From: Pseudomonadota bacterium
GTDB taxonomy: Bacteria > Myxococcota_A > UBA796 > GCA-2862545
Assembly: GCA_023954855.1 (NCBI GenBank)
Contig: JAGSGY010000001.1
Span: forward strand, 1 to 64,000
DNA: 64,000 nucleotides
Reading direction: 5' to 3'
The notes beneath the pieces were generated by a model that was given only the letters and a program-made list of their open reading frames with translations, searched no databases and was not told the origin of the DNA. A program made the position numbers and the translations under genes. Numbering within the stretch: position 1 is the first letter of the stretch; each line of letters starts with the position of its first letter. Positions 48 through 13,495 of this stretch are shown here, in pieces.

Positions 48-2459
48 CTAACGCTGCTTCAGCCGTCGCACAGCCTCTTCGCCGGTAATCCGCCGCCCGT
101 CTTCCTCGAAGGGCAGCACGACTCGACACCCATCACGCCATTGGTCGCATCCCCATGCCGCCCGACCGGCCACGATATGCCCGACCCCGCAGCGCGGACA
201 GCTCATCCCCACCGGCGAGACCCTCGACGACCGCGCGACGTCCCGAGGTGCAGGGTCCCCACCGCGCGGACTCTCGCGAGGGGCGAACACAAAGCGGACT
301 CGACCTTCGTCAACGTTGAACTCGAGCGCGGCCTCGAACTCGTTGCCCGCCTTGCTCCGAAAGCCCTTCACAAAGGCAGAGCGCCCTTCCTTGAGCATCT
401 GCTTGACCATGCGTCCGCTGATCTTGCGCTTCGACATCGTCTTGAACACAACGAAAGCGCAGGCACGACCGGCATCACAGGCGAACACGGCTCGATTCTC
501 GCGAACCGGTTTGCCGCAGACCGGGCACTCACCAAGTGGCTTACCCTCAGGCGCCGGGGCCGCGAACAACTCCGCGGGTGGCGGCTGGGCACCCTCGATG
601 GCCCGGACAATCCGCCCAACATGCTCTGCGACATCACGCATGAAGGCGTCGCGCGCCTCCTGTCCCTCGGCGATTCGAGCCAAGCGGGCTTCCCAGCTGG
701 CCGTCAACTCGGCGCTAGTGAGCTCATCGAGGGGAATCGCGAGGATCAGCGCCCGGCCGGCTTCGGTCGCCCACAGCTCCTTCGCCTTTCGCACCAAGAA
801 CTTCCGGTGCAGAAGGGTCTGAAGCACTGCCGCACGGGTCGCCGGTGTACCCAGACCCGCATTGCGCATGGCCCGCACCAGTTCCTTGTCGTCCAGATGC
901 TTCCCGGCGGTCTCCATGGCCCGCAGCAGCAGGGCATCGTCGAATCGCCGCGGCGGGCGCGTCTGACCCGCGTTGGCCGTCGCCTCCTCGACCGCTCCCT
1001 CGTCGCCGACCTCGACGCGCGGAAGGTCGAGGTCCTTCTTTGATTTCGGAGGGTCCACAGCCTGCCAGCCGCGCTCGAGGCAGACTCTTCCCTTCGAGTG
1101 AAAGCGAAGTGGTTCCGCCAAGCCATCTGGAATCGGACCCGTCGGAGGGACAGCCACCACCAGCTTGGTCAGCGCGAAAATGGCCGGCTCTGACAGTGCC
1201 GCCATCAATCGACGGGCCACTAAGTCATAGACCCGCTTTTCATCGGCTGAAAGCCGCACACCGGCCGCCTTCCGCGTCGTTGGAAGAATGGCGTGGTGGT
1301 CCCCTACTTCGGCCGCGTTGACGACCCGCTTTCCGGGCGCGATCGGCTTTGCCAGCAGTGCCGAGGCGAAGGGCTGGTAGGGCCCAACGGCCTCGAGAGC
1401 GCCAAGGATCTTCGACAGTTCCGGAACCTGGTCCTCGGTGAGGAAGCGGGCATCCGTTCTTGGATAGGACAGCAGCTTGTGCTTCTCGTAGAGTGCCTGG
1501 GCGATGTCGAGCGTCTGCTGCGCCGACAGCCCATAACGCTGGTTTGCACGGCGCTGAAGGCTGGTCAGGTCGTACAACAGCGGCGGCTTCTCGGTGCGCT
1601 TCTTCCGGTCGGCCTTCTCGACCGCGCCCACCGCCCCTGAGGCTGCCGCAGCAACCGCCTCGGCATCCGCCTCAGTGCTGAGCCGCTCACCCTTCGGTGC
1701 CGGCTGCCGCTCATCGTCGTCCGTCGGCTGACCGGGCTGGAAGAAACGCCCCTTCCAGGTCGCCGTAGCACCGTCCACAGTGGCCGAGAACACGGCGTCC
1801 ACCGTCCAGAAGTCCTCGGGCACGAAGGACTCGATCTCGAGGTCTCGCCGCACAATCAGTGCAAGCGTCGGCGTCTGCACCCGACCGACGGAGAGGAGGC
1901 CACCACCGCCACCCTTGCGAGCGAGGCAGGTCATCGCGCGCGTGGCGTTGAGGCCGACCAGCCAGTCCGCCTCGGAGCGGCATCGCGCCGCATCCCCCAG
2001 CGCATCGAGCTCAGGGCCCGGACGGAGCTGGCCCCAGGCCGTCTTGATCGCCCGGTCGGTCAGTGACGACGCCCAGAAACGCTGTACCGGCGCCGTCGCC
2101 CCCGCCGCCTGGTAGGCGTAGCGGAAGATCAGCTCCCCTTCGCGGCCGGCGTCACAGGCATTCACGATCTGACCGATGGCGCGATCAGAGAGAAGGCGCT
2201 TGACCACCCTCCACTGATCTTGAGCCGTCTGCCGAGGCCTGAGTTCGAACTGCGACGGCAACATCGGGAGCGAATCAAAGGCCCACCGTTTCCACGCCGC
2301 GTCGTAGTGGCTGGGCTCCTGCAGCTCGAGCAAATGCCCAATGCACCAGGTGATCCGCACGCCATCGCCCTCAATGAACCCATCACGCCGGCCGGTAATG
2401 CCGAGCACGCGAGCGATGTCGCGCGCAACAGAGGGTTTCTCAGTAAGGATCAGACGCAT
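48..2459 (-). CDS. topB: DNA topoisomerase III (type IA)
   Basis: An 803-residue type IA topoisomerase that cuts one DNA strand through a tyrosine, passes the other strand and decatenates DNA. The TOPRIM domain opens the protein (LILTEKPSVARDIA), and the catalytic tyrosine is in the SYPRTD motif near residue 335. After the core there is a TopB-type C-terminal part: a Cys-rich element (CPVCGKPV, then CDAGRACAF), a topoisomerase C-terminal repeat ending in FVFAP, and a final Cys element (SCPRCGVGH). The length and C-terminal build fit the long proteobacterial/myxobacterial TopB type rather than TopA. It is divergent from the M18 peptidase gene, with 68 bases between the starts. The identification as type IA is firm; the choice of topB over a second topA rests on the tail. 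Confidence 0.93.
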   Translation of the reverse strand: MRLILTEKPSVARDIARVLGITGRRDGFIEGDGVRITWCIGHLLELQEPSHYDAAWKRWAFDSLPMLPSQFELRPRQTAQDQWRVVKRLLSDRAIGQIVNACDAGREGELIFRYAYQAAGATAPVQRFWASSLTDRAIKTAWGQLRPGPELDALGDAARCRSEADWLVGLNATRAMTCLARKGGGGGLLSVGRVQTPTLALIVRRDLEIESFVPEDFWTVDAVFSATVDGATATWKGRFFQPGQPTDDDERQPAPKGERLSTEADAEAVAAAASGAVGAVEKADRKKRTEKPPLLYDLTSLQRRANQRYGLSAQQTLDIAQALYEKHKLLSYPRTDARFLTEDQVPELSKILGALEAVGPYQPFASALLAKPIAPGKRVVNAAEVGDHHAILPTTRKAAGVRLSADEKRVYDLVARRLMAALSEPAIFALTKLVVAVPPTGPIPDGLAEPLRFHSKGRVCLERGWQAVDPPKSKKDLDLPRVEVGDEGAVEEATANAGQTRPPRRFDDALLLRAMETAGKHLDDKELVRAMRNAGLGTPATRAAVLQTLLHRKFLVRKAKELWATEAGRALILAIPLDELTSAELTASWEARLARIAEGQEARDAFMRDVAEHVGRIVRAIEGAQPPPAELFAAPAPEGKPLGECPVCGKPVRENRAVFACDAGRACAFVVFKTMSKRKISGRMVKQMLKEGRSAFVKGFRSKAGNEFEAALEFNVDEGRVRFVFAPRESPRGGDPAPRDVARSSRVSPVGMSCPRCGVGHIVAGRAAWGCDQWRDGCRVVLPFEEDGRRITGEEAVRRLKQR

Positions 2460-2527
2460 CCTTGGGAGCTAACCCGACCGTCTGTCCGACGCGTGGGCGG
2501 GTTACAAGCGAGCCCACTGGAGTGCGC
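2460..2527. promoter_or_regulatory. Divergent promoter region between topB and the M18 peptidase gene
   Basis: These 68 bases separate two start codons on opposite strands, so they must hold the promoters or leaders of both genes unless transcription starts further inside. I see no clear -35/-10 pair. The only clear element is GGAG about six bases before the peptidase ATG. Confidence 0.4.
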
Positions 2528-3817
2528 ATGCCGACCCCCCTGCTCGACCGCTTCCTCGCCTTTCTCGACGACTCGCCATCGCCCCAGCACGCGGCCGCAA
2601 ACGTCGCAGAAGCCCTTGCCCAAGTGGGTTTTTCGGCGATTGATGAGCGGGCCAAGCCGGAGTCGCTGAAGGCTGGCGCAAAGCACTACATCCAGCGAAA
2701 CGGCAGCATTGTCGCCTTTCGCATTGGCAGCGGGCCGGTCGCCGAAGTGGGTTTCAGGCTGATCGCCGCACACACCGACTCGCCCAACCTTCGCATCAAG
2801 CCGAACCCCGAGATGAAGAAGCACGGCATGGTGCGGCTCGGCGTCGAGACCTATGGCGGCGTGCTTCAGGCAAGCTGGGCAGACCGCGACCTGGGCATCG
2901 CCGGACAGGTGGTTCTTCGCGACGGTTCACTCCGCCTCGTCGACCTTCGCCGTCCACTCTGCCGCATCCCCAACCTGGCCATTCACCTGAACCGCGGCGT
3001 CAACAAGGACGGGTTGGTCCTCAACGCGCAGACGCAGCTGCCGGCATTGCTCACCCTCTCTGACGAAGAGCGGCCACTGCATCGCCTGCTCGCGGCAGAG
3101 CTCGGCTGCGACGCCGACGACATCCTCACCTGGGACCTCGGGCTCTACGACCTCACGCCGCCGACCCTCGCCGGCGCGCACGATGAGTTCCTGCACTCTG
3201 CGCGCCTCGACAACCTCGCGTCCTGTCACGCCGGACTTGAGGCCATGGTCGCCGCCTGCGAAGGTGACGCTCCGTCCCAGACCGCCGTTCTCGGCCTCTT
3301 CGACCACGAAGAGATCGGGTCCCGCACCGCTCGCGGCGCCCAGGGGCGCATGTTCGAGGACGTGCTGAGCCGCATCGTTCGCGACAGCCCCCAAGCCGAG
3401 GGTGGACTGGCCCGCGCGATGGCCCACTCCTGGCTGATCTCTGCCGACATGGCCCACGCGGTGCACCCCGGCTTCTCTGAGAAGCACGATGGCGAGCACA
3501 TGCCCAAGCTCGGCAAGGGCCCCGTCATCAAGCGCAACGCGAACTGGCGCTACGGTACCGAAGCCGACTCGGCGGCGATGTTCATCGCGCTGTGCCAAGA
3601 GGTCGATGCCCCCTACCAGTACTTCGTCAACCGAAGCGACCTCAGCTGCGGCTCGACCGTCGGCCCCATCGTGGCCTCGAACCTCGGTGTTCGCACAGTG
3701 GACTGCGGCAACCCGATGCTCTCGATGCACTCCGCACGCGAGATGTGCGCGAGTGCAGATCACGAGCCGATGACCAAGGTCATGACCGCCTTCTTCCAGG
3801 GTGCTGGCCCAGCCTAG
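2528..3817 (+). CDS. apeB: M18 family zinc aminopeptidase
   Basis: A 429-residue dinuclear zinc aminopeptidase that removes N-terminal residues (family preference Asp/Glu) in the cytoplasm. Metal and catalytic motifs are in the expected order: AAHTDSPNLRIKP (His and Asp), SARLDNLASC (bridging Asp), LFDHEEIGSRT (catalytic and metal Glu), SADMAHAVHPGF (Asp), and near the end NPMLSMHSAREM (His). The chosen ATG has GGAG just upstream and gives the usual M18 length. An earlier TTG at 2462 would add 22 residues unlike the family. It is followed after 36 bases by the OmpA-type lipoprotein gene on the same strand. The gene symbol follows family usage. Confidence 0.9.
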   Translation: MPTPLLDRFLAFLDDSPSPQHAAANVAEALAQVGFSAIDERAKPESLKAGAKHYIQRNGSIVAFRIGSGPVAEVGFRLIAAHTDSPNLRIKPNPEMKKHGMVRLGVETYGGVLQASWADRDLGIAGQVVLRDGSLRLVDLRRPLCRIPNLAIHLNRGVNKDGLVLNAQTQLPALLTLSDEERPLHRLLAAELGCDADDILTWDLGLYDLTPPTLAGAHDEFLHSARLDNLASCHAGLEAMVAACEGDAPSQTAVLGLFDHEEIGSRTARGAQGRMFEDVLSRIVRDSPQAEGGLARAMAHSWLISADMAHAVHPGFSEKHDGEHMPKLGKGPVIKRNANWRYGTEADSAAMFIALCQEVDAPYQYFVNRSDLSCGSTVGPIVASNLGVRTVDCGNPMLSMHSAREMCASADHEPMTKVMTAFFQGAGPA

Positions 3818-3853
3818 CCCGATCTACGGTAGCGTCGCCTCCGAGGACCCCAC

Positions 3854-4666
3854 ATGCGCATCGTCGCAGTCACCATTACCATCGCGCTGCTCGCAGCTTG
3901 TGTTCCCAAGGGCCGGTACAACGAGGCCATCGAGAACAACGCCGAGTTGAGCGCCGAGATCGAGACCCTTCGTGGTCAGATCGCGGACCAAGATGAAGAG
4001 CTTTTGCGTCTTCAGAGCCAGGCTGAAGCCGCGCAGGCAGCGCTCGAGCAGACCAACCGCAAGCTCGCCGCCAAGGTCGCTGAGGCAGGCGCACTCGCCG
4101 AAGACATCGAGGCGATGAAGCAGGCACTGGCCGAGGCCGAGCTTCGCAAGGCGCGGGCCGATGCCGCCCTCGAGTCGTACCGGGACCTCGTGGCTCGCTT
4201 CCAGTCCCTGATCGACGCCGGCACGCTGCGCGTCAAGATCGTAGACGGCCGCATGGTGGTCGAGTTGGCCACGGACATCTTGTTCCCGCCCGGCTCGTCG
4301 ACGCTCTCGAGAAACGGCCGCACCGCGCTCACCGACGTCGCCAAGGTGCTCGCCTCGATTCCAGGGCGGACCTACCAAGTCGCAGGCCACACGGACAACG
4401 TGCCGATCTCGACCGAGCGTTTCCCGAGCAACTGGCACCTCGGCGCCTCGCGCTCCATCGCAGTGGTTCGCGTGCTCGAGCGAGGGGGTCTTGGTCCAGA
4501 CCGCGTGAGCGCAGCCTCCTTCGCCGAGTTTCAGCCCGTCGACACCAATCGAACGAGCGAGGGCAAGGCCGCAAACCGCCGCATCGAGATCGTCGTCGTG
4601 CCCGATCTATCCGACCTTCCCGGCTACGAAGAGCTGGAGTCCCTCTCTTCAGGCGACGAGATCTAG
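3854..4666 (+). CDS. OmpA-family peptidoglycan-binding lipoprotein
   Basis: A 270-residue predicted lipoprotein. The signal peptide ends in a lipobox, LAAC (Cys16). Residues about 25-125 form a heptad-rich coiled coil full of Glu, Ala and Gln. The C-terminal 130 residues are an OmpA/MotB domain with the peptidoglycan-binding signature AGHTDNVPI, then NWHLGASRS and NRRIEI. It probably tethers the outer membrane to the cell wall. GAGG before the ATG supports the start. Its stop codon overlaps the GTG start of the TetR gene by one base, so it lies at the head of the polyketide operon, perhaps by transcriptional coupling only. It is not a MotB because there is no N-terminal proton-channel helix. 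Confidence 0.88.
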   Translation: MRIVAVTITIALLAACVPKGRYNEAIENNAELSAEIETLRGQIADQDEELLRLQSQAEAAQAALEQTNRKLAAKVAEAGALAEDIEAMKQALAEAELRKARADAALESYRDLVARFQSLIDAGTLRVKIVDGRMVVELATDILFPPGSSTLSRNGRTALTDVAKVLASIPGRTYQVAGHTDNVPISTERFPSNWHLGASRSIAVVRVLERGGLGPDRVSAASFAEFQPVDTNRTSEGKAANRRIEIVVVPDLSDLPGYEELESLSSGDEI

Positions 4667-5247
4667 TGGCGACGCGGGCCGAGACCAAAGCGAAGACTAG
4701 GCGTGCTCTGCTGCGCGCCGGCCGGCGCCTCGTCGTCGAACAGGGACTCGACTCGCCCTCCCTCGACCTGATCTGCAAGACCGCTGGCTTCACCCGCGGT
4801 GCCTTTTACGTCCACTTCGAAGACCGGGACGACTTTCTCGCCTCGGTGATGGAGTCGATTCTCGCCGACTACACCGCATCGATCGTGCAGACCGCAGACC
4901 CAGCCGGCGACCTCGAGCGCAGCATCCGACGCTTTGTCACCTCCCTCGATGACCTCGGCAAGGACGCGCCACACTTGTCGCTCCTGCTCGACGGCTGCAC
5001 GCGCTCCGACCGCGTTCGGGACCGCTTCATCGCCGGAGTTCGCGCCTCCATCGTGCTCTTGGCCGGGGTGGGCTCCAGCGCCGCTGCCGCCGGCGAGCTC
5101 CGCGACGACGTTCCCGTTCACGCCATCTCCGAGCTCCTCGTCGCCACCGTGTTTGGCGTGCTCGCCACCCGGCAACTCGGCGTCCCCTTCGATCTCACCG
5201 CCGCCGCGGAGGCTCTGATCACATTGCTCCGCCCCATGGAGACCTAG
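4666..5247 (+). CDS. TetR-family transcriptional regulator
   Basis: A 193-residue TetR-type repressor. The N-terminal helix-turn-helix is clear (LDLICKTAGFTRGAFYVHF, about residues 33-51). The remaining 140 residues are the helical ligand-binding and dimer domain, which has no recognisable ligand signature. The GTG start overlaps the stop of the lipoprotein gene by one base. The polyketide synthase gene begins directly after its stop. Position makes it the likely local regulator of the type III PKS gene set, perhaps answering to a fatty acid or the lipid product; that role is inference. Confidence 0.88.
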   Translation: MATRAETKAKTRRALLRAGRRLVVEQGLDSPSLDLICKTAGFTRGAFYVHFEDRDDFLASVMESILADYTASIVQTADPAGDLERSIRRFVTSLDDLGKDAPHLSLLLDGCTRSDRVRDRFIAGVRASIVLLAGVGSSAAAAGELRDDVPVHAISELLVATVFGVLATRQLGVPFDLTAAAEALITLLRPMET

Positions 5248-6282
5248 TTGCACATCGCCGCCGTCGGTCGCGCCCTCCCTACGCATCGCTACGAGCAGGA
5301 CGAGCTTCTCGCCGCGTTCACAGCCTTTTGGACGCGAACCCACAAGAACCCAAGACGCGTCGAGCAGCTGCACAAGGCCGTTCGGGTCGGTGCCCGCCAT
5401 CTGGCTCTGCCCATGGAGCGTTACCCCGAGCTGGACTTCACCGAGGCGAACAACGCGTTCATCGAGGTCGGTACGGAGCTCGCGGCGAAGGCGCTCTCCG
5501 AGGGGCTCGAGGCCGCCGGTAAGAAGCCCGAGGACCTCGACGCCCTGTTCTTTGCGACCGTCACGGGCCTCGCGACGCCATCGATCGATGCTCGTCTCGT
5601 CAATCGCCTCGGCCTGCGCAATGACATCGTCCGCGTGCCCATCTTCGGGTTGGGCTGCGTCGCTGGAGCCGCGGGCACCGCGCGAGTCGCCGACTACCTC
5701 AAGGCCTACCCCGATCACACCGCCGCCCTCGTCTGCGTCGAGCTCTGCTCTCTCACGCTCCAACAGGGCGACCTGTCGATCCCCAACCTCATCGCGACCG
5801 GCCTGTTCGGGGATGGAGCAGCAGCCCTGATCGCGACGGGAAGCACAGGACCCAAGGTGTTGGCGAGTCGCAGCCGGTTCTACCCGGATACCGAGCGCAC
5901 CATGGGCTGGGACATCGGCGCGGAGGGCTTCAAGATCGTGCTCTCCGCCGGGGTCCCAAAGCTTGTCCACGAGCACCTCGGCGAGGACGTGCACGCCTTC
6001 CTCGCGGCGAATGGGCTGACCCGCAAGGACATCGACGTCTGGGTCTGCCACCCGGGTGGCCCCAAGGTCATCGATGCCTACCGCGACGCCCTGGACGTCA
6101 CCGACGAGGACCTGGCCCTGACGTGGCGATGCCTCGAACAGGTCGGGAACCTCTCGAGTGCCTCGGTGCTCTGGGTGCTCGCGGACACACTCGCCGAGCG
6201 TGACATCGAGCCGGGCTCCTACGGCCTTCTTGCTGCCATGGGACCGGGCTTTTGCGCTGAGCTGGTGTTGCTACAGTGGTGA
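5248..6282 (+). CDS. Type III polyketide synthase (chalcone/stilbene synthase-like)
   Basis: A 344-residue thiolase-fold enzyme that extends an acyl starter with malonyl-CoA and cyclises the chain to an alkylpyrone or alkylresorcinol. The catalytic triad is complete: Cys137 in GLGCVAGAAG, His268 in VCHPGG and Asn301 in NLSSAS. The FGDGAAA loop is also present. The sequence resembles bacterial BpsA/SrsA-type enzymes that use long acyl chains. The start is TTG, placed directly after the TetR stop codon. The 3' end overlaps the next gene by seven bases. The FAAL and ACP genes downstream suggest that the starter arrives as acyl-ACP. The product class is inferred. Confidence 0.9.
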   Translation: MHIAAVGRALPTHRYEQDELLAAFTAFWTRTHKNPRRVEQLHKAVRVGARHLALPMERYPELDFTEANNAFIEVGTELAAKALSEGLEAAGKKPEDLDALFFATVTGLATPSIDARLVNRLGLRNDIVRVPIFGLGCVAGAAGTARVADYLKAYPDHTAALVCVELCSLTLQQGDLSIPNLIATGLFGDGAAALIATGSTGPKVLASRSRFYPDTERTMGWDIGAEGFKIVLSAGVPKLVHEHLGEDVHAFLAANGLTRKDIDVWVCHPGGPKVIDAYRDALDVTDEDLALTWRCLEQVGNLSSASVLWVLADTLAERDIEPGSYGLLAAMGPGFCAELVLLQW

Positions 6283-6800
6283 GCCTGCTTGCCTACTCTG
6301 GCCTGATGGGCCTGACCGCGCTCGAGCGGTTGGCAGAGCTCGTCGTGTCCAAGCGCAACCTCGCGTGGAGCCTCACCCAAGGTGGCGTGGAGCACGGCTT
6401 CTCGCACTTTCCGTTCATGGTCGTGCTGCACACCGCCTTTCTCATCGGCTGCGTCGCAGAGCCATGGCTCATGGACCGCCCCTTCGTGCCTTGGCTCGGG
6501 TGGCCCTGCCTCGTGCTCGCGGTCGCGTGCCAAGGCTTGCGTTGGTGGTGCATCACCACTCTCGGGCAACAGTGGAACACCCGGGTTGTCATCGTGCCCG
6601 GCATGGAACGAGTGACCGGCGGGCCGTATCGCTACTTCAACCATCCGAACTACGTGGCGGTCGTGGTCGAGGGTTTGGTGCTGCCGCTGATCCACACCGC
6701 CTGGCTGACAGCCGCGATCTTCACCGTGCTCAATGCGCTGCTGCTCACCGTGCGCATCCACATCGAGAACCAGGCCCTGGCCTCGCTGGAGACAGCATGA
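6276..6800 (+). CDS. ICMT-family membrane methyltransferase (BpsB/SrsB-like)
   Basis: A 174-residue integral membrane protein with about four hydrophobic helices. It carries the isoprenylcysteine methyltransferase family signature GPYRYFNHPNYVAV (about residues 113-126), which binds S-adenosylmethionine. Small ICMT homologues next to type III PKS genes (BpsB/YpbQ in Bacillus, SrsB in Streptomyces) O-methylate alkylpyrones or alkylresorcinols, and this gene sits in the same place. The GTG start overlaps the PKS gene by seven bases, and its stop overlaps the ACP start. The specific substrate is inferred from this context. Confidence 0.85.
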   Translation: MVSLLAYSGLMGLTALERLAELVVSKRNLAWSLTQGGVEHGFSHFPFMVVLHTAFLIGCVAEPWLMDRPFVPWLGWPCLVLAVACQGLRWWCITTLGQQWNTRVVIVPGMERVTGGPYRYFNHPNYVAVVVEGLVLPLIHTAWLTAAIFTVLNALLLTVRIHIENQALASLETA

Positions 6801-7030
6801 CCGAGGGCGAGATCCGGGCCACGCTCGAGCAGCTCGCCGTCGACAACCTCGACGGGGCTACGCTTCCCGAGGGTGCGCTCGACGAGCACCTGGACAGTGT
6901 TCAGCGTTTGACGTTGGTGGTCTCGATCGAGGACCACTTCGACATCTGTTTTGAGCCCGAGGACGACGAAGCCGCCGCAAGCGTCGACGACGTCATTCGC
7001 ATCATCAAGCGCCACCTGGACGCGCCGTGA
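6797..7030 (+). CDS. Acyl carrier protein
   Basis: A 77-residue acidic protein with the carrier-protein motif HLDSVQRLTL. Ser34 in LDS is the expected site for the 4'-phosphopantetheine arm. The helix pattern and length are normal for a free-standing ACP, although the region before the Ser differs from the GxDS form of fatty-acid ACPs. It overlaps the upstream methyltransferase gene (ATGA) and the downstream ligase gene (GTGA), so the three are translationally coupled. It most likely carries the fatty acyl chain from the adenylating ligase to the type III PKS. Confidence 0.88.
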   Translation: MTEGEIRATLEQLAVDNLDGATLPEGALDEHLDSVQRLTLVVSIEDHFDICFEPEDDEAAASVDDVIRIIKRHLDAP

Positions 7031-8727
7031 GCGACACCCTCGTTCGTCGCCTGACGCGCGCAGCAGACCTCAACGTCGAGGGCGCAGGCATCCGCTTTCT
7101 CGACCTCAAAGAGAACGAGACCTGGCTGGGCTGGTCCGAGATCGCCACCCGTGCTGCACGCGCTGCTGGCACGCTTCGAGAGGCTGGAGTCCGCGAGGGC
7201 CAACGGGTCGCCATGGCCATTCCAACCAGCCCGCTGTTTCTCGATGCCTTCTTTGGAACGCTCTGGCTGGGGGCAACCCCCGTCCCGCTGTACCCACCGG
7301 TCCGGCTTGGCCGACTCGACGAGTACATCGCGAAGACCGCGCGGATGATTCAGATCGTCGGCGCCACCGCGTTGATCGCCGATAAGCGCACGCGTCGCGT
7401 GCTCGGGCAGGTCGTGGCGCGCACAGATGTACCGATGGTCCTGGCCGAGGACCTGGCGAGCGGAGCCGAGCGGCCGGCCCACATGACCCTGTCAGAGGAC
7501 TACGGCCTGGTGCAGTTCTCGTCCGGGACGACGACCGATCCCAAGCCAGTGGCGTTGACCCATCGCGCCCTGCTCGCAAACACCGAGTCGATTCTGGATT
7601 TCATGCCCGACGGTGCAGAAATCCCGCACGCAGGCGTTTCGTGGCTGCCGCTCTACCACGACATGGGGCTGATCGGCTGCATCTTCCCGGCGCTGCATCG
7701 CCCGGGAACGCTCACCCTCATCCCGCCCGAGATGTTCTTGCTCAAGCCAGCGCTCTGGCTGAGGGCTATCTCGAAGTACCGGGCTACCGTCTCGCCAGCA
7801 CCGAACTTCGCCTATGCCTACGCGACCGAGCGCATCCTCGACAAGGAGCTCGAAGGCGTCGACCTCTCAAGCTGGACTCTCGCACTCAACGGCGCTGAGC
7901 CGATCACCGAAGAGACCCTTGCAGGCTTTACGAAGCGCTTTGCCACACATGGCTTCGCCCCGACCGCGATGACCCCCGTGTACGGCCTGTCTGAGGCGGC
8001 CCTTGCGGTGACCTTCTCCCCGCCAGGTCGGGGTCCAAAGATTACGGCCGTGTCTCGCAGTGAGCTCGCCGCCGGGCGCTTCACGCCTGCTTCCGACGGG
8101 GTGAGCCTGGTGTCGGTGGGATTGCCCCTTCGCGGCTTCACCGTGGAGATTCGGGTTGACGATCAGCCCGTCGAGCCCGGTGTGGTCGGCCACCTCTTCG
8201 TGCAGGGTCCATCGCTGCTGTCTCGGTACCTCGGCCGAGACGAGCAACCTCTCGTGGATGGATGGCTCGACACCGGTGACCTCGCAGCCCTTCATGAAGG
8301 CGAGCTGTACATCGTCGGACGCGCGAAAGACATCATCGTGATTCGGGGACGCAATCACCACCCTGCCGACATCGAGACCGCTGTGGACGGCGTGGAAGGC
8401 GTGCGCACAGGCTGTGTGGCCGCCGTTGGGGACGTCACTGAGCACGGCGAGGAACTGGTCGTCTTCATCGAGGTTCGCGAAGCCATCGAAGGACTGGCCG
8501 AGGCCTGCGCGCAGGCGATTCGTTCGCGCAGTGGCGTCAATCCGGGCCTGGTGGTGCTGCTCGAGCCGGGGTCGCTGCCTCGCACCTCGTCGGGCAAGCT
8601 TCGTCGCTCCGAGGCCCTGAAGCGCTTCAAGGACGGCGTGCTGCTGCCGCCGTCGAGGGTGGGGCCGCTCTACCTCGCAGGCGCGCTCGCCAAGAGTGCG
8701 CTTGGGTACTGGGGCCGAAAGCTGTGA
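7027..8727 (+). CDS. Fatty-acyl-AMP ligase (FAAL)
   Basis: A 566-residue adenylate-forming enzyme of the FAAL type that activates a fatty acid as acyl-AMP and passes it to an ACP. Seen in order: the P-loop-like FSSGTTTDPKPVALTH, SWLPLYHDMGLIG, YGLSEAALAVTF, the DTGDL motif, VGRAKDIIVIRGRNHHPADI (the GRNHxPxDIE form is typical of FAALs, unlike acyl-CoA ligases), and a C-terminal PRTSSGK with the catalytic Lys. The GTG start overlaps the ACP stop. It is the starter-loading enzyme of this gene set. Type I fatty acid synthases do this job in Azotobacter, so a FAAL-ACP pair is a different solution. Confidence 0.9.
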   Translation: MSDTLVRRLTRAADLNVEGAGIRFLDLKENETWLGWSEIATRAARAAGTLREAGVREGQRVAMAIPTSPLFLDAFFGTLWLGATPVPLYPPVRLGRLDEYIAKTARMIQIVGATALIADKRTRRVLGQVVARTDVPMVLAEDLASGAERPAHMTLSEDYGLVQFSSGTTTDPKPVALTHRALLANTESILDFMPDGAEIPHAGVSWLPLYHDMGLIGCIFPALHRPGTLTLIPPEMFLLKPALWLRAISKYRATVSPAPNFAYAYATERILDKELEGVDLSSWTLALNGAEPITEETLAGFTKRFATHGFAPTAMTPVYGLSEAALAVTFSPPGRGPKITAVSRSELAAGRFTPASDGVSLVSVGLPLRGFTVEIRVDDQPVEPGVVGHLFVQGPSLLSRYLGRDEQPLVDGWLDTGDLAALHEGELYIVGRAKDIIVIRGRNHHPADIETAVDGVEGVRTGCVAAVGDVTEHGEELVVFIEVREAIEGLAEACAQAIRSRSGVNPGLVVLLEPGSLPRTSSGKLRRSEALKRFKDGVLLPPSRVGPLYLAGALAKSALGYWGRKL

Positions 8728-9761
8728 TGGATCTGGCCGTCATCGGTGGCGGCCCGGCCGGCCTGTGTGCGGCGCTCGCTGCGTCGCGGATGGGCCTGAG
8801 CGTGCGCGTGTACGAGCCGCGACAGGCGCCCATCGACAAGGCCTGTGGCGAGGGCCTCATGCCCGCCGGGGTCGCCGCAATCCGCGCCCTCGGCGTCGAG
8901 TTGGACGGCTACCCCTTCGTGGGCGTTCGCTATGTTCAAGGCAGTGCTTCGGCGGTGGGGACCTTCGCCACAGGCCCAGGCCTCGGCATTCGACGCACAC
9001 GCCTACACGCTGCTCTTCACCAGAGCTGTGTCGATGCTGGTGTTCACTTTGTCGACCGAGCCGTGCACACGCTCGACGTCGACGGTGACAGCGTCCCATT
9101 CACCGAGGGGCCGGCCCGCTATGTGGCCGTTGCGGACGGCCTCAGCTCGCCGCTGCGACGCTCCCTCGAACTCGAGCTTCCCACGCCCTGGCCGGAGCGC
9201 ATGGGTCTGCGGCAGCACTTCGCGACGGCACCCTGGACCGACCACGTCGAGGTGCACTGGTCAGCGCGCTGCGAGGCCTACGTCACCCCGGTCGCCGACG
9301 ACGAGGTCGGAGTCGCGCTGCTCGTCGCCAAGGCCGACCTGCCGAGCGGCAACACGCAGCAGCGCTTCGACACGCTGCTCCAAGACTTCCCGAAGCTTGC
9401 TGCCCGACTTGGAGACTCGCGCTCCTCGGTCCGCGGCGCCGGGCCCTTCGCGCGGAACACGCGCAGCCGTACTCGAGGACGGGCACTGCTGATCGGCGAT
9501 GCCGCAGGCTACCTCGACCCCCTCACTGGCGAGGGCCTGCGCCTTGCGGCAGAGTGCGCTGGTCCTCTGGCCCGCGCCGTGAGGGACGACGACCCCGCTC
9601 GTTACGAGCGCGAGTGGACCCGCATCATGGCTCCGTACTTTCGCGCCACAGGGGCGCTGCTCCGGCTGGCCTCCAACCGCTGGACCCGTCCCTGCATCGT
9701 TCCGGTGGCATCGCGAGTTCCAGGGCTGATGGACCGCTCCATACGTGTTCTGGGAGACTGA
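8727..9761 (+). CDS. FAD-dependent monooxygenase/oxidoreductase (SrsC-like role)
   Basis: A 344-residue flavoprotein. The N-terminal Rossmann motif is VIGGGPAGLCAAL, followed by KACGEGLMPAG, a motif shared with geranylgeranyl-reductase-like flavoenzymes. The second FAD motif, LLIGDAAGYLDPLTGEG, is near residue 250. ATG overlaps the FAAL stop (TGATG). A GTG one codon earlier is also possible. In Streptomyces the type III PKS gene srsA is followed by a methyltransferase gene and a flavin hydroxylase gene, and this gene fills the third role. Ring hydroxylation to a quinone or hydroxy-resorcinol is therefore likely but unproven. Confidence 0.85.
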   Translation: MDLAVIGGGPAGLCAALAASRMGLSVRVYEPRQAPIDKACGEGLMPAGVAAIRALGVELDGYPFVGVRYVQGSASAVGTFATGPGLGIRRTRLHAALHQSCVDAGVHFVDRAVHTLDVDGDSVPFTEGPARYVAVADGLSSPLRRSLELELPTPWPERMGLRQHFATAPWTDHVEVHWSARCEAYVTPVADDEVGVALLVAKADLPSGNTQQRFDTLLQDFPKLAARLGDSRSSVRGAGPFARNTRSRTRGRALLIGDAAGYLDPLTGEGLRLAAECAGPLARAVRDDDPARYEREWTRIMAPYFRATGALLRLASNRWTRPCIVPVASRVPGLMDRSIRVLGD

Positions 9762-9767
9762 GGTCCG

Positions 9768-10859
9768 ATGTTCTTCCTATTCGCTACCGCGCTGGCTCTC
9801 GAGCCCCTCCCGGTCAACGGCACCCTCGACGTGCTTGAGCAGAGTGCAGACCCACGGGCGGCCATGGCCCAAGCCGGCACCCTGCTCGCCGAGTGGAGCA
9901 TCCACGTTGCGGGCGAAGACATTGACGGCGCCTACCTCACCGAGCTTGCAGCGCTGCATCCCGACGAGCCGTTCACCCGTGTCGTTCGCGAGAAGATGGG
10001 ACGACCGGTCGACGTCGAGGACTTCGTGCTCTTCCTCGATGATGTGCTGGCTGCCGGAGTCGCCGGGCGACGCGGAGAGCCACTCTGGGTGAGCGCCGGA
10101 CGCTTGCGCAGCGCTGGGGCCTTCCTTCACCCCGACGATGTCTTCAAGGACAAGCCCCGACGCTGGGGCCGCAAGAGCACCCTCGCCGTGGACCAGCCCA
10201 CTCCGCAGGAGGGACTCGAGCCCGCCGAGGATGGAGCCCTACCGGATCCTCGATGGACGGCCCGGTACCAAAACCCCGCGGATGAAGCCGCGCAATGGAC
10301 GGCACTCGGGGCCGAGAACGCCACTTTTGCCGATCGACTTCAGCTCCTTGTCGCCGAGCTGCGCGCGCAAGACTGCGAGGTCTACCTGACGTCGACCGTG
10401 CGCTACCGCGAGCGCGGGTACCTGATGTGGGGGGCATTCACGCTGTCGCGCGCCACCAACGCTGAAGAGCTCGAGACCCGGGCCGCCGAGCTCGACGCCG
10501 TGCAGGAGCCATGGGGCCTGGCGGTGCCGATTACCTGGCGCCATCCAGACGGCTGGGAGGCGACCAGAGACGCTGCTCGCGCGATGGCAGACACCTACGA
10601 CGTGGTCTACGCCACCCGGAAGGGCGCGCAGTACTCCAACCACTACGGTGGGCAGGCCGCAGACCTCGTCGTGCTCCGGCTCCCACGCGAGCTGACGCTC
10701 ACCGCGCCAGGCGGCGAAGCCAAGACGTGGGACCTCTCGGGAGCTGATCAGGCCCGTGACCTGTCACTCACGCCCGAGATCATCGACTGGATCGAAGACG
10801 CCTTCGAGTTCCGGAAGCTGCGCGGCGACTACCCTCACTGGGGCGATGCGCGCCGCTAG
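9768..10859 (+). CDS. Exported M15-like peptidoglycan peptidase
   Basis: A 363-residue protein. A short hydrophobic start (MFFLFATALA) looks like a signal peptide. The middle has no clear domain. The C-terminal third has the zinc motif of M15 D-Ala-D-Ala peptidases/endolysins: SNHYGGQAAD fits SxHxxGxAxD exactly, and the last zinc ligand is probably the His of HWGD, four residues before the end. It probably cleaves peptide cross-links in the periplasm. AGG seven bases upstream supports the ATG. It begins six bases after the flavoenzyme gene, and its stop codon directly abuts the stop of the convergent PBP1B gene. Confidence 0.72.
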   Translation: MFFLFATALALEPLPVNGTLDVLEQSADPRAAMAQAGTLLAEWSIHVAGEDIDGAYLTELAALHPDEPFTRVVREKMGRPVDVEDFVLFLDDVLAAGVAGRRGEPLWVSAGRLRSAGAFLHPDDVFKDKPRRWGRKSTLAVDQPTPQEGLEPAEDGALPDPRWTARYQNPADEAAQWTALGAENATFADRLQLLVAELRAQDCEVYLTSTVRYRERGYLMWGAFTLSRATNAEELETRAAELDAVQEPWGLAVPITWRHPDGWEATRDAARAMADTYDVVYATRKGAQYSNHYGGQAADLVVLRLPRELTLTAPGGEAKTWDLSGADQARDLSLTPEIIDWIEDAFEFRKLRGDYPHWGDARR

Positions 10860-13376
10860 TTACTCGGGATCCGCGTCCGCGACGTCGTCTCGCTTCCTCG
10901 AGAACAGGCCCCGCAGACCCTCACCCAAGCCGCCGATGAGCGGGGCTCCGTGCACGTCGCACTTCGCTCTTGGGATGTGGCCCGGAGAGAAGTGCTCTTC
11001 ATAGGTCGTCTCGCAGGCTGGCCGTGCGAGACGGTGACTCTCGACGCAGACCGGAACCTGAGCGACGCCGTCGGGCACGAGGAAGTCGCCGGTTGCCGTG
11101 CCTGAAGCCACGGCGAAGCGTGCCCAAGTCGGCAGAGCCGCCTGACCGCCGCCGAGTTCCAGGCTGCGCCCCTTGTCGTGGCCAACCCAGACCGCCACCG
11201 CGAGCTCGGGGGTCAGACCGACAAACCAGGCGTCGCGATAGCCCGTGGTCGTGCCCGTCTTGCCGGCGACGCCCTCGACCGCCTCATAGCGAGCGGCTCG
11301 ACGCCCCGTGCCTCGCTCGATGACGCCCTCGAGAACCCCGACGGCAAGCGCAGCGGCCCGAGAGCTCGCAACCCTGTCTTGCTCGCCGTCGAGGGCCAAT
11401 ACTTGATCACCATTTCCGTCTTCGATGCCCGCGACAATCCACGGGGTGGAGGCGGTCCCGCCGCCGAACACGGTGTACGCGCCCGCCATCTCGAGAGGCG
11501 TGACTGAGAAGCCGCCAAGCGCGGCCGATGGAAGGTTCGTCGCCCGAGACAAGCCCGTGCTTCGGTAGAAGGCCTGCAATTCCTCCGCACCGACCTCTTC
11601 GGCGAGCTTCACTGCAGGGATGTTGCGGCTCTTCTCAATCGCTTCGCGAATCGTGATTTCGCCGAGGTATCGGCCGTCGTAGTTGGACGGGGTCCAGACC
11701 TTGCCGTCGACCTTTCGCGTAATGGCCTCGTCGGTGATTGGGTCGAGAGGCCCAAGGCCAGGGTCCGCGTCGAAGGCCGCGAGCAAGGTCAGCGGCTTGA
11801 CCGTGGAGCCTGGGTTTCGCCAGGCGTTCGAGGCGCGATTGAACGGCGAGACCGTGTAGTCACGCCCACCGACCATGGCGACGATGGCGCCATCCGTCAG
11901 ACGAACGGCGACGAGAGCAGCCTGGGCCCCCTTCGCAGATGCATGCTCGGTATCGAGCTCGTGCATGCCCAGGAAGACGGCCTGCTCGGCAGCGCGCTGC
12001 AGACTGGGCTGAAGCGTGGTGTAGACGCGGTAGCCGCTGTTGGCGAGAGCACCGGTACCCACGGCATCTTCGGTCGCGTCGATGGCGACATCGACGGCCC
12101 ACGGAGCGCGGCGAACCGCACCGGGAAGCTGTCCATCAATGAGGACCAGCTCCTTCTCAGCAGCCGCGGCCTGTGCCTCGGTGATGGCGCCGGTCTTCAC
12201 CATGCGCCCGAGCACAATCCGACGACGTTCCTTCGCGGCATCCGCGTGTCGTACCGGCGAATACGCGTTGGGCGCGCTGATGATGCCTGCGAGGGTCGCG
12301 CTCTCCGCCAGAGTGAGCCGCTCTGCAGACACGCCGAAGTAGGCCCGAGCCGCCTGCTCCACCCCGTGAATCGGCACACCGCCAACCTGCCCCAGATAGA
12401 CCTCGCCCAAGTAGAGCTCGAGGATCTGGTCCTTGGTCATCGTGTGTTCGAGGGCGGCCGCAAAGAAGGCCTCGCGAACCTTGCGTTGGTAGCTGCGCTC
12501 ACTCGAGAGGAACAGGTTCTTCGCGAGCTGCTGCGTAAGCGTCGAGCCCCCCTGGCTCTTGCGTCCAGCCACCAGGTTGGTCACCACCGCGCGTGCGATG
12601 CCAATGGGGTCGACGCCCATGTGGTCGCGAAAACGCGAGTCCTCGATCGCGAGCAGCGCCGGCTCCATCCACTGCGACACGTGTTCGAGTGAGACCTCTG
12701 TCCGCCGACCCTCGCGGTCACCTACGGCTGCAAGTACCGTCGGATGCAGCACCGCACCCTTGGCAGGCTCGGTGGAGACCACGACGCCATCGCGCACCAA
12801 GACGCGGCTCTTCCCAGCGGGGACCGAGCCTCCAGGGGATGTCAGCCCCGCACTCCACACGCGAACATCGCCGCCCGCGAGCGTGAACTGCCCAGCGGCT
12901 GTGAGCGTGTCGACCTTCTCGTATCCAGCAGAGAGCAGGTCGCCGGCGAGCTCCCGCGCGGTCATCGCCTGGCCGGTTCGCACCGACATCGGCGCCGAGT
13001 AGATCACGCCCGGCCAGGTCCTTGGGGGGTCAGCGAGGTACTGCTCCACATCGTCCGTCGCCCGGTTCCAGAGCACATACCCGGCGAGTGAGAAGCCGAG
13101 TGCAGCGCCAACCGACCAGGTGGCGGCCTCCCACATCGCCCAGCGGCGCCAGGTCATCGGGGTCGAAGGAACGACCGGCGCCTTCTTGCTCGAACCCTTC
13201 TTCTTGCGAGGCGCGCGCGGCTTCTTGGCCCGGGTGGCGCGTTTCTTAGGCTTGGCTGCACCTGCCGAAGCCCTCGTCGAAGGCTTCTTCTTCGTGGCGC
13301 GGGTACGCGTCGTACGCTTCTTCTTCGTCGTCGACGAACGACCCGCACCAGAGGCGGGCTTCTTCGGGGTAGCCAT
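10860..13376 (-). CDS. mrcB: Penicillin-binding protein 1B (bifunctional transglycosylase/transpeptidase)
   Basis: An 838-residue class A PBP. Residues about 5-66 are an extreme Lys/Arg/Thr/Ala tail in the cytoplasm. A transmembrane helix is at about 84-103. Residues about 122-205 fit the UB2H domain of PBP1B-type enzymes. The GT51 transglycosylase has AIEDSRF (Glu245), QGGSTLTQQLAKN and EVYLGQ. The transpeptidase has STVK (catalytic Ser), SRN and KTGT. The ATG start gives MATPKKPAS. A more upstream start would add an unlikely 17-residue extension. No strong ribosome binding site is visible. It polymerises and cross-links peptidoglycan. The cationic tail is discussed as a finding. Confidence 0.92.
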   Translation of the reverse strand: MATPKKPASGAGRSSTTKKKRTTRTRATKKKPSTRASAGAAKPKKRATRAKKPRAPRKKKGSSKKAPVVPSTPMTWRRWAMWEAATWSVGAALGFSLAGYVLWNRATDDVEQYLADPPRTWPGVIYSAPMSVRTGQAMTARELAGDLLSAGYEKVDTLTAAGQFTLAGGDVRVWSAGLTSPGGSVPAGKSRVLVRDGVVVSTEPAKGAVLHPTVLAAVGDREGRRTEVSLEHVSQWMEPALLAIEDSRFRDHMGVDPIGIARAVVTNLVAGRKSQGGSTLTQQLAKNLFLSSERSYQRKVREAFFAAALEHTMTKDQILELYLGEVYLGQVGGVPIHGVEQAARAYFGVSAERLTLAESATLAGIISAPNAYSPVRHADAAKERRRIVLGRMVKTGAITEAQAAAAEKELVLIDGQLPGAVRRAPWAVDVAIDATEDAVGTGALANSGYRVYTTLQPSLQRAAEQAVFLGMHELDTEHASAKGAQAALVAVRLTDGAIVAMVGGRDYTVSPFNRASNAWRNPGSTVKPLTLLAAFDADPGLGPLDPITDEAITRKVDGKVWTPSNYDGRYLGEITIREAIEKSRNIPAVKLAEEVGAEELQAFYRSTGLSRATNLPSAALGGFSVTPLEMAGAYTVFGGGTASTPWIVAGIEDGNGDQVLALDGEQDRVASSRAAALAVGVLEGVIERGTGRRAARYEAVEGVAGKTGTTTGYRDAWFVGLTPELAVAVWVGHDKGRSLELGGGQAALPTWARFAVASGTATGDFLVPDGVAQVPVCVESHRLARPACETTYEEHFSPGHIPRAKCDVHGAPLIGGLGEGLRGLFSRKRDDVADADPE

Positions 13377-13495
13377 AGGGAGCTGCGGGGGCGAGCGGGA
13401 GGTGGTGCGCACCAGGACGGCGAGCACCGGGGGATGCAGCAGTATCGCACACCCCTACGATCCGCGCAACAGGCGGCTCTCCGGCAAATCTCGGG

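Follow-up and report, generated by a model that had tools for sequence, protein, structure and literature searches.

A putative FtpA-type polyketide pathway, with fatty acyl-AMP ligase and carrier protein, encoded in a less studied lineage

How a type III polyketide synthase (PKS) is supplied with its starter when the genes of a fatty acyl-AMP ligase (FAAL) and an acyl carrier protein (ACP) stand beside its own, and whether such an arrangement is new, are the questions raised by six genes lying head to tail on the forward strand at 4666-9761 of the window (the whole stretch of 64,000 nucleotides that was analysed). They encode, in this order, a TetR-family regulator, a type III PKS, an ICMT-family methyltransferase, an ACP, a FAAL and a flavoprotein.

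Gene layout and enzyme identities

Table 1. Features of the locus and its flanks (positions are those of the window)
Feature	Position	Strand	Details
OmpA-family gene	3854..4666	+	PF00691 3e-16; directly 5' of TetR
TetR-family regulator	4666..5247	+	GTG start; TetR_N 2.9e-09 (Pfam)
Type III PKS, FtpA/PKS11-like	5248..6282	+	TTG start; PKS11 match 3.9e-104; Cys137, His268, Asn301; Trp221
PKS residues 34-40 (N34, R37, Q40)	5347..5367	+	numbered from the 5248 start
ICMT-family (membrane) methyltransferase	6276..6800	+	PF04140 7.5e-27
ACP, 77 aa	6797..7030	+	phosphopantetheine Ser34 within LDSVQRL; profile versus solved ACPs 1.7e-10
Fatty acyl-AMP ligase (FAAL)	7027..8727	+	FAALs are the top solved matches; NCBIfam model 1.7e-116, below its cut-off
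FAD-dependent oxidoreductase, geranylgeranyl-reductase superfamily	8724..9761	+	TIGR02032 3e-27; FAD_binding_3 3.7e-12
Protein without family match, 363 residues	9768..10859	+	6 bases 3' of the flavoprotein gene

The six genes had been described in the original prediction as contiguous, with overlaps of at most seven bases, and this is borne out by the positions of the open reading frames. The overlap amounts to 7 bases at the PKS/ICMT joint and to 4 bases at each of the ICMT/ACP, ACP/FAAL and FAAL/flavoprotein joints, the last shrinking to 1 base should the ATG at 8727 be the true start of the flavoprotein; the TetR and PKS genes abut with zero overlap, and the OmpA-like and TetR genes have one base in common. 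Since the OmpA-like gene lies directly 5' and another gene follows 6 bases 3', all on the same strand, the transcript may exceed the pathway. The OmpA-like gene may thus be transcribed together with the cluster and is probably outside the pathway, and a common transcript may likewise include the gene at the 3' side, whose protein gave zero Pfam or NCBIfam matches at 0.01. The TetR protein is probably the controller of the cluster. Among the 109 rows annotated by profiles (see below), a TetR gene adjoining the PKS gene was found only at the window's own locus, and weak TetR matches on the opposite strand were noticed in L026 and L031.

The nearest solved relative of the PKS is PKS11 of M. tuberculosis (named an alpha-pyrone synthase), and CylI is the third-best solved match. 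The Cys-His-Asn triad was kept in 108/108 related PKS loci and the Trp in 107 of them, the window's Trp221 being aligned with a Trp of PKS11. In the FAAL the AMP-binding domain was recognised in Pfam (1.5e-52), matches to solved FAALs went down to 1.3e-80 and the top solved matches are FAALs, by which the enzyme is classified, from its sequence, as a FAAL rather than an acyl-CoA ligase. The ACP taken alone gave zero Pfam matches, and NCBIfam ACP matches only below cut-off; the match in Table 1 was obtained with a profile built from 15 related ACPs and then run against solved ACPs. The Asp-Ser of the carrier site was kept in 61/61 related ACPs, and this conservation together with the profile match rules out a chance open reading frame. 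Judged from the sequence, the catalytic and carrier residues of the cluster are intact.

It can be said that the predicted gene identities fit overall, the matches being far above chance (PKS 3.9e-104, ICMT 7.5e-27, FAAL 1.3e-80), with two of them in need of rewording. The ACP stands on its profile match of 1.7e-10 and is less strongly supported than had been claimed, being without a Pfam match of its own. The supposed FAD monooxygenase is indeed a FAD flavoprotein, with its best assignment in the geranylgeranyl-reductase superfamily (TIGR02032, below cut-off), and a monooxygenase reaction is not fixed by its sequence.

Gene order among relatives and the proposed supply of the starter

Scanning genome contigs with the PKS yielded 231 relatives, and the 80 best were retained. 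Adding the window itself and 28 longer stretches from its genome's relatives makes 109 rows, which were annotated with profiles from the window's proteins and their matches. Rows L001, L002 and L083-L112 (short, or own copies) were dropped before counting, the longer stretches L113-L140 being substituted for dropped rows (L109 and L112 have no substitute); L116, which equals L003 throughout the 11000 bases that were compared, was dropped as well, which leaves 108 distinct loci. The order PKS-ICMT-ACP-FAAL-FAD was present in 46 of these 108 loci, FAAL in 60 and ACP in 61, all three counts including the best 80 of 231 relatives. In every one of the 60 FAAL loci the ACP and FAAL genes stand behind the PKS gene on the same strand, with ACP 5' of FAAL. 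Intervening genes are found between the two in L126 (a thioredoxin-like protein, 4087-6632) and L131 (AAA-type ATPase, PIN-like and ParA-like proteins, 6260-8999), all named by eye; they look unrelated on reading of the open reading frames and were set aside as pathway members. An ACP without a FAAL occurs in the 108-locus set only in L024, from an Armatimonadetes MAG, where the PKS is followed by the ACP (8001-9262) with neither FAAL nor ICMT within 2983 bases downstream; its PKS carries the N34/R37 pair discussed below.

The same order was seen in Myxococcus (complete in L026, L031 and L059, truncated within the FAD gene in L028), Corallococcus and Archangium. Among the sources of FAAL loci are these three genera, Citreicoccus, Pyxidicoccus and Hyalangium, and MAGs labelled Acidobacteria and Gemmatimonas; FAAL is absent from the actinobacterial and planctomycetal loci of the set, which carry at most PKS-ICMT-FAD. 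Compared with Myxococcus dinghuensis (L059) the window's proteins are identical at 56% (PKS), 55% (ICMT), 30% (ACP), 52% (FAAL) and 45% (FAD) of positions. Distance matrices of the five proteins over the 46 loci are correlated at 0.88-0.95, an agreement that joint inheritance of the genes would produce. The window's branch in the PKS tree stands outside a supported Myxococcaceae-rich clade, among loci of its own order which are mostly FAAL-linked. Within the window's class, 35 of 71 genomes carry the PKS subfamily, the window's genome among them, and the sole other genome of its genus lacks it. Two variants of the layout were also met. L003, L033 and L042 (Hyalangium versicolor) have PKS-ACP-FAAL without an ICMT gene between, the contig of L003 (in G003) belonging to Deltaproteobacteria bacterium isolate GEM2.Bin11, which is Myxococcota according to NCBI. 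A more distant set (L140:4945-9726, also L181, L183, L187 and L188), with PKSs 47-50% identical to the window's, is a second copy in G029.

The enzyme families, the active-site and carrier residues, and the gene order with its conservation are established by the sequence. The simplest reading of them, because the genes overlap as in an operon and the ACP accompanies the FAAL in 60/60 loci, is the route from fatty acid through FAAL and ACP to the type III PKS, as had been predicted. The FAAL would adenylate a free long-chain fatty acid and load the resulting acyl-AMP's chain onto Ser34 of the small ACP, from which it would pass to Cys137 of the PKS; the PKS would extend the chain with malonyl- or methylmalonyl-CoA and then cyclise it, with an alkylresorcinol or alkylresorcylic acid as the likeliest outcome. 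The ICMT-type enzyme would add a methyl group to the ring or to its oxygen, and the flavoprotein would hydroxylate or oxidise the ring toward a quinone. In M. xanthus the acyl donor to FtpA is an ACP. Altogether we infer the ACP-to-PKS transfer, the chain length, the ring type and the methylation and oxidation steps, and a probability of about 0.85 is assigned to an FtpA-type (alkylresorcylic acid / alkylpyrone) pathway, leading from fatty acid via acyl-AMP, acyl-ACP and the PKS to a phenolic lipid which is methylated and oxidised.

Several reports are consistent with single steps of this pathway. The title of Hayashi et al. 2011 (cited in PMC10896814, PMC5916927, PMC8460268, PMC5006271, PMC6497799 and PMC11837247) names a FAAL coupled to a type III PKS in M. 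xanthus and alkylresorcylic acid, and Table 2 of PMC11837247 gives for this FAAL/type III PKS alkylresorcylic acid, C18:0 and "in vitro data". FtpA is stated to use malonyl- and methylmalonyl-CoA (PMC5916927), and its alkylresorcinols are described as converted to alkylquinones by oxidation in M. xanthus (PMC10896814). Loading of an M. xanthus ACP by an M. xanthus FAAL in vitro is reported in PMC8460268, the pair being not necessarily the ftp pair, and acyl-ACP is accepted by the type III PKSs germicidin synthase, SCO7671, ArsB and ArsC (PMC6274091).

The same pathway may end in a methylated alkylpyrone, a variant of the FtpA-type reading rather than its competitor, and one to which somewhat lower than even odds are given. 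Myxobacterial type III PKS clusters were tied to alkylpyrones 407 and 393 (Hug 2019, via PMC12766979 and PMC11837247), and the nearest solved relative bears the name of a pyrone synthase. Against it stands Trp221, since the resorcinol-linked Trp is described as kept in FtpA, SrsA, PKS10 and PKS11 (PMC5916927); this residue points to a resorcinol, yet PKS11 shares it, so the ring type is not decided by it.

It is improbable that the PKS draws its starter, as in an operon of the srsABC/bpsAB type, from acyl-CoA or from the ACP of housekeeping fatty-acid synthesis, with the FAAL-ACP pair serving another step or pathway. The FAD gene was found in 37 and the ICMT gene in 38 of the 48 FAAL-free rows (9 of which have too little flank), so the core exists without FAAL elsewhere, and in three genomes a PKS with the N34/R37 signature has no adjoining FAAL while an ACP-FAAL pair lies on another contig. 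The same-strand position of ACP and FAAL downstream of the PKS in 60/60 FAAL loci, the overlapping joints in the window and the FAAL that the M. xanthus study names in its title (Hayashi 2011) argue for the FAAL-fed route instead. A cylindrocyclophane-like scheme, with a type I PKS lengthening the FAAL-ACP starter ahead of the type III enzyme, is suggested by the rank of CylI among the solved matches and by a pathway that also opens with FAAL and ACP and reaches CylI through a type I PKS (PMC11837247), but is highly improbable here, as no type I PKS was found among the genes translated at 48-13427 (read by eye) or in the conserved five-gene set.

A residue pair in the FAAL-linked synthases

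When 60 FAAL-linked PKSs were compared with 39 FAAL-free ones (the 9 with too little flank being excluded), the most divergent columns lay mostly in residues 25-46. Asn at position 34 was present in 60/60 FAAL-linked and 13/39 FAAL-free PKSs, Arg at position 37 in 60/60 and 9/39, and Arg at position 40 in 11/60 and 33/39. N34 and R37 occur together in 60/60 versus 5/39, a difference which is not a test, because the signature was chosen from about 340 columns after the labels were known. A prediction rule fixed in advance was applied to fresh loci: 26 were fetched and 20 scored (L165, L166, L172 and L173 were training duplicates, L170 and L182 too short), and FAAL was predicted correctly in 19 of the 20, all of them relatives of the training set. 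The one miss, L167, comes from a genome that is 68% complete.

The FAAL labels follow the PKS tree closely, with 9 changes on 99 PKSs versus 31.1 in shuffles. When residues 20-50 were removed before tree building (119 rows), 11 changes of the FAAL label and 7 of the signature were counted; in a tree-aware test on 6 supported independent pairs, a mean of 3.7 agreed in direction and 0 ran the opposite way (p about 0.125, not significant). The aligned residues of CylI are Asp and Gln, by which N34/R37 is rejected as a general rule for ACP-fed type III PKSs. The signature may mark this FAAL-ACP partnership or only its ancestry.

Five training PKSs bear the signature with no adjoining FAAL (L132, L118, L024, L004 and L074). 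In the genomes of L132 (G043) and L118 (G027) an ACP-FAAL pair lies on a separate contig, the FAAL sharing 54 and 44% identity, respectively, with that of the window; the same holds for G056 (L134, a locus too short to call; FAAL 54% identical). The off-locus pairs (L191:4224-6265, L192:4480-6827, L193:3193-5695) give the impression of a starter pair that was relocated or split off. A search for FAAL elsewhere in the genomes gave only a 36% match in G030 and none at 1e-60 in G282 and G345; for L004 and L074 the data offer no explanation.

Residues 37, 40 and 44 of the window PKS align to Arg68, Arg71 and Lys75 of 7cb3, which have the same spacing as K55, R58 and K62, residues said to line the CoA-binding tunnel of a plant enzyme with K55 at its entrance (PMC11093982); Lys50 and Arg53 of another plant enzyme are reported to bind CoA (PMC5713876). 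By this step from the 7cb3 numbering, window position 37 would fall on K55 and position 40 on R58 of the plant tunnel. N34-x-x-R37, usually with Arg40 lost, is put forward tentatively, as a rather unlikely candidate determinant of ACP docking or acyl delivery in FAAL/ACP-fed type III PKSs. ACP recognition by type III PKSs is called unresolved in a 2016 review (PMC6274091), and among the papers covered by the literature search no ACP-docking motif was found for these enzymes, which does not exclude a published one; this by-product of the analysis may be new. If the proposal were true, ACP-fed type III PKSs would be predictable from sequence alone, even where the ACP-FAAL pair is elsewhere in the genome. 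As FAAL-linked and FAAL-free members share one fold and are mostly separated by two residues, ACP recognition becomes testable by point changes.

Comparison with known systems

The dedicated FAAL and ACP had been regarded as the distinguishing feature of the locus, and a characterised cluster with the same gene order as the measure of its novelty. Such a precedent is the M. xanthus FtpA cluster (PMC5006271, PMC11837247), the window's order being found here in Myxococcus congeners, and with the same order in 46/108 loci the FAAL-ACP arrangement is ruled out as new. The window very probably holds a member of the myxobacterial FtpA-type cluster family, mostly familiar, in a less studied lineage; as such the cluster adds one more lineage to a known family and little beyond.

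Like the window, the M. xanthus FtpA cluster is described with a FAAL-fed type III PKS and with methyltransferase and monooxygenase genes; the gene order was matched in the Myxococcus congeners. As to differences, the window's proteins share 45-56% identity with those of a Myxococcus set (30% for the ACP), and a TetR gene precedes the window's cluster. The Mor1 cluster (PMC5006271) resembles the window by description, with PKS, methyltransferase, AMP-dependent synthetase and monooxygenase; these four are likened there to the M. xanthus alkylresorcylic acid pathway in ORF organisation and identity (58, 54, 54 and 47%, respectively), and the description there mentions no ACP and gives no product. 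Myxobacterial alkylpyrone clusters (BGC0001831; Hug 2019) also join a type III PKS with a FAAL and are widespread in Myxococcota, an alkylpyrone-type cluster being described as conserved across much of the phylum (PMC12766979); they were likened to the window by description, and differ in product class.

The cylindrocyclophane cyl cluster (CylA FAAL, its ACP and the type III PKS CylI) begins, like the window's pathway, with FAAL and ACP and ends with a type III PKS, and differs from it by the type I PKS step between them and by CylI at the N34/R37 positions. Streptomyces srsABC is a trio of PKS, ICMT and flavoprotein. Such an operon is matched by the window, where PKS, ICMT and flavoprotein genes stand together, and the predicted likeness to the srsABC and bpsAB trios fits. 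Operons of the srsABC type and the FAAL-free relatives found here are without FAAL and ACP, whereas the window has both.
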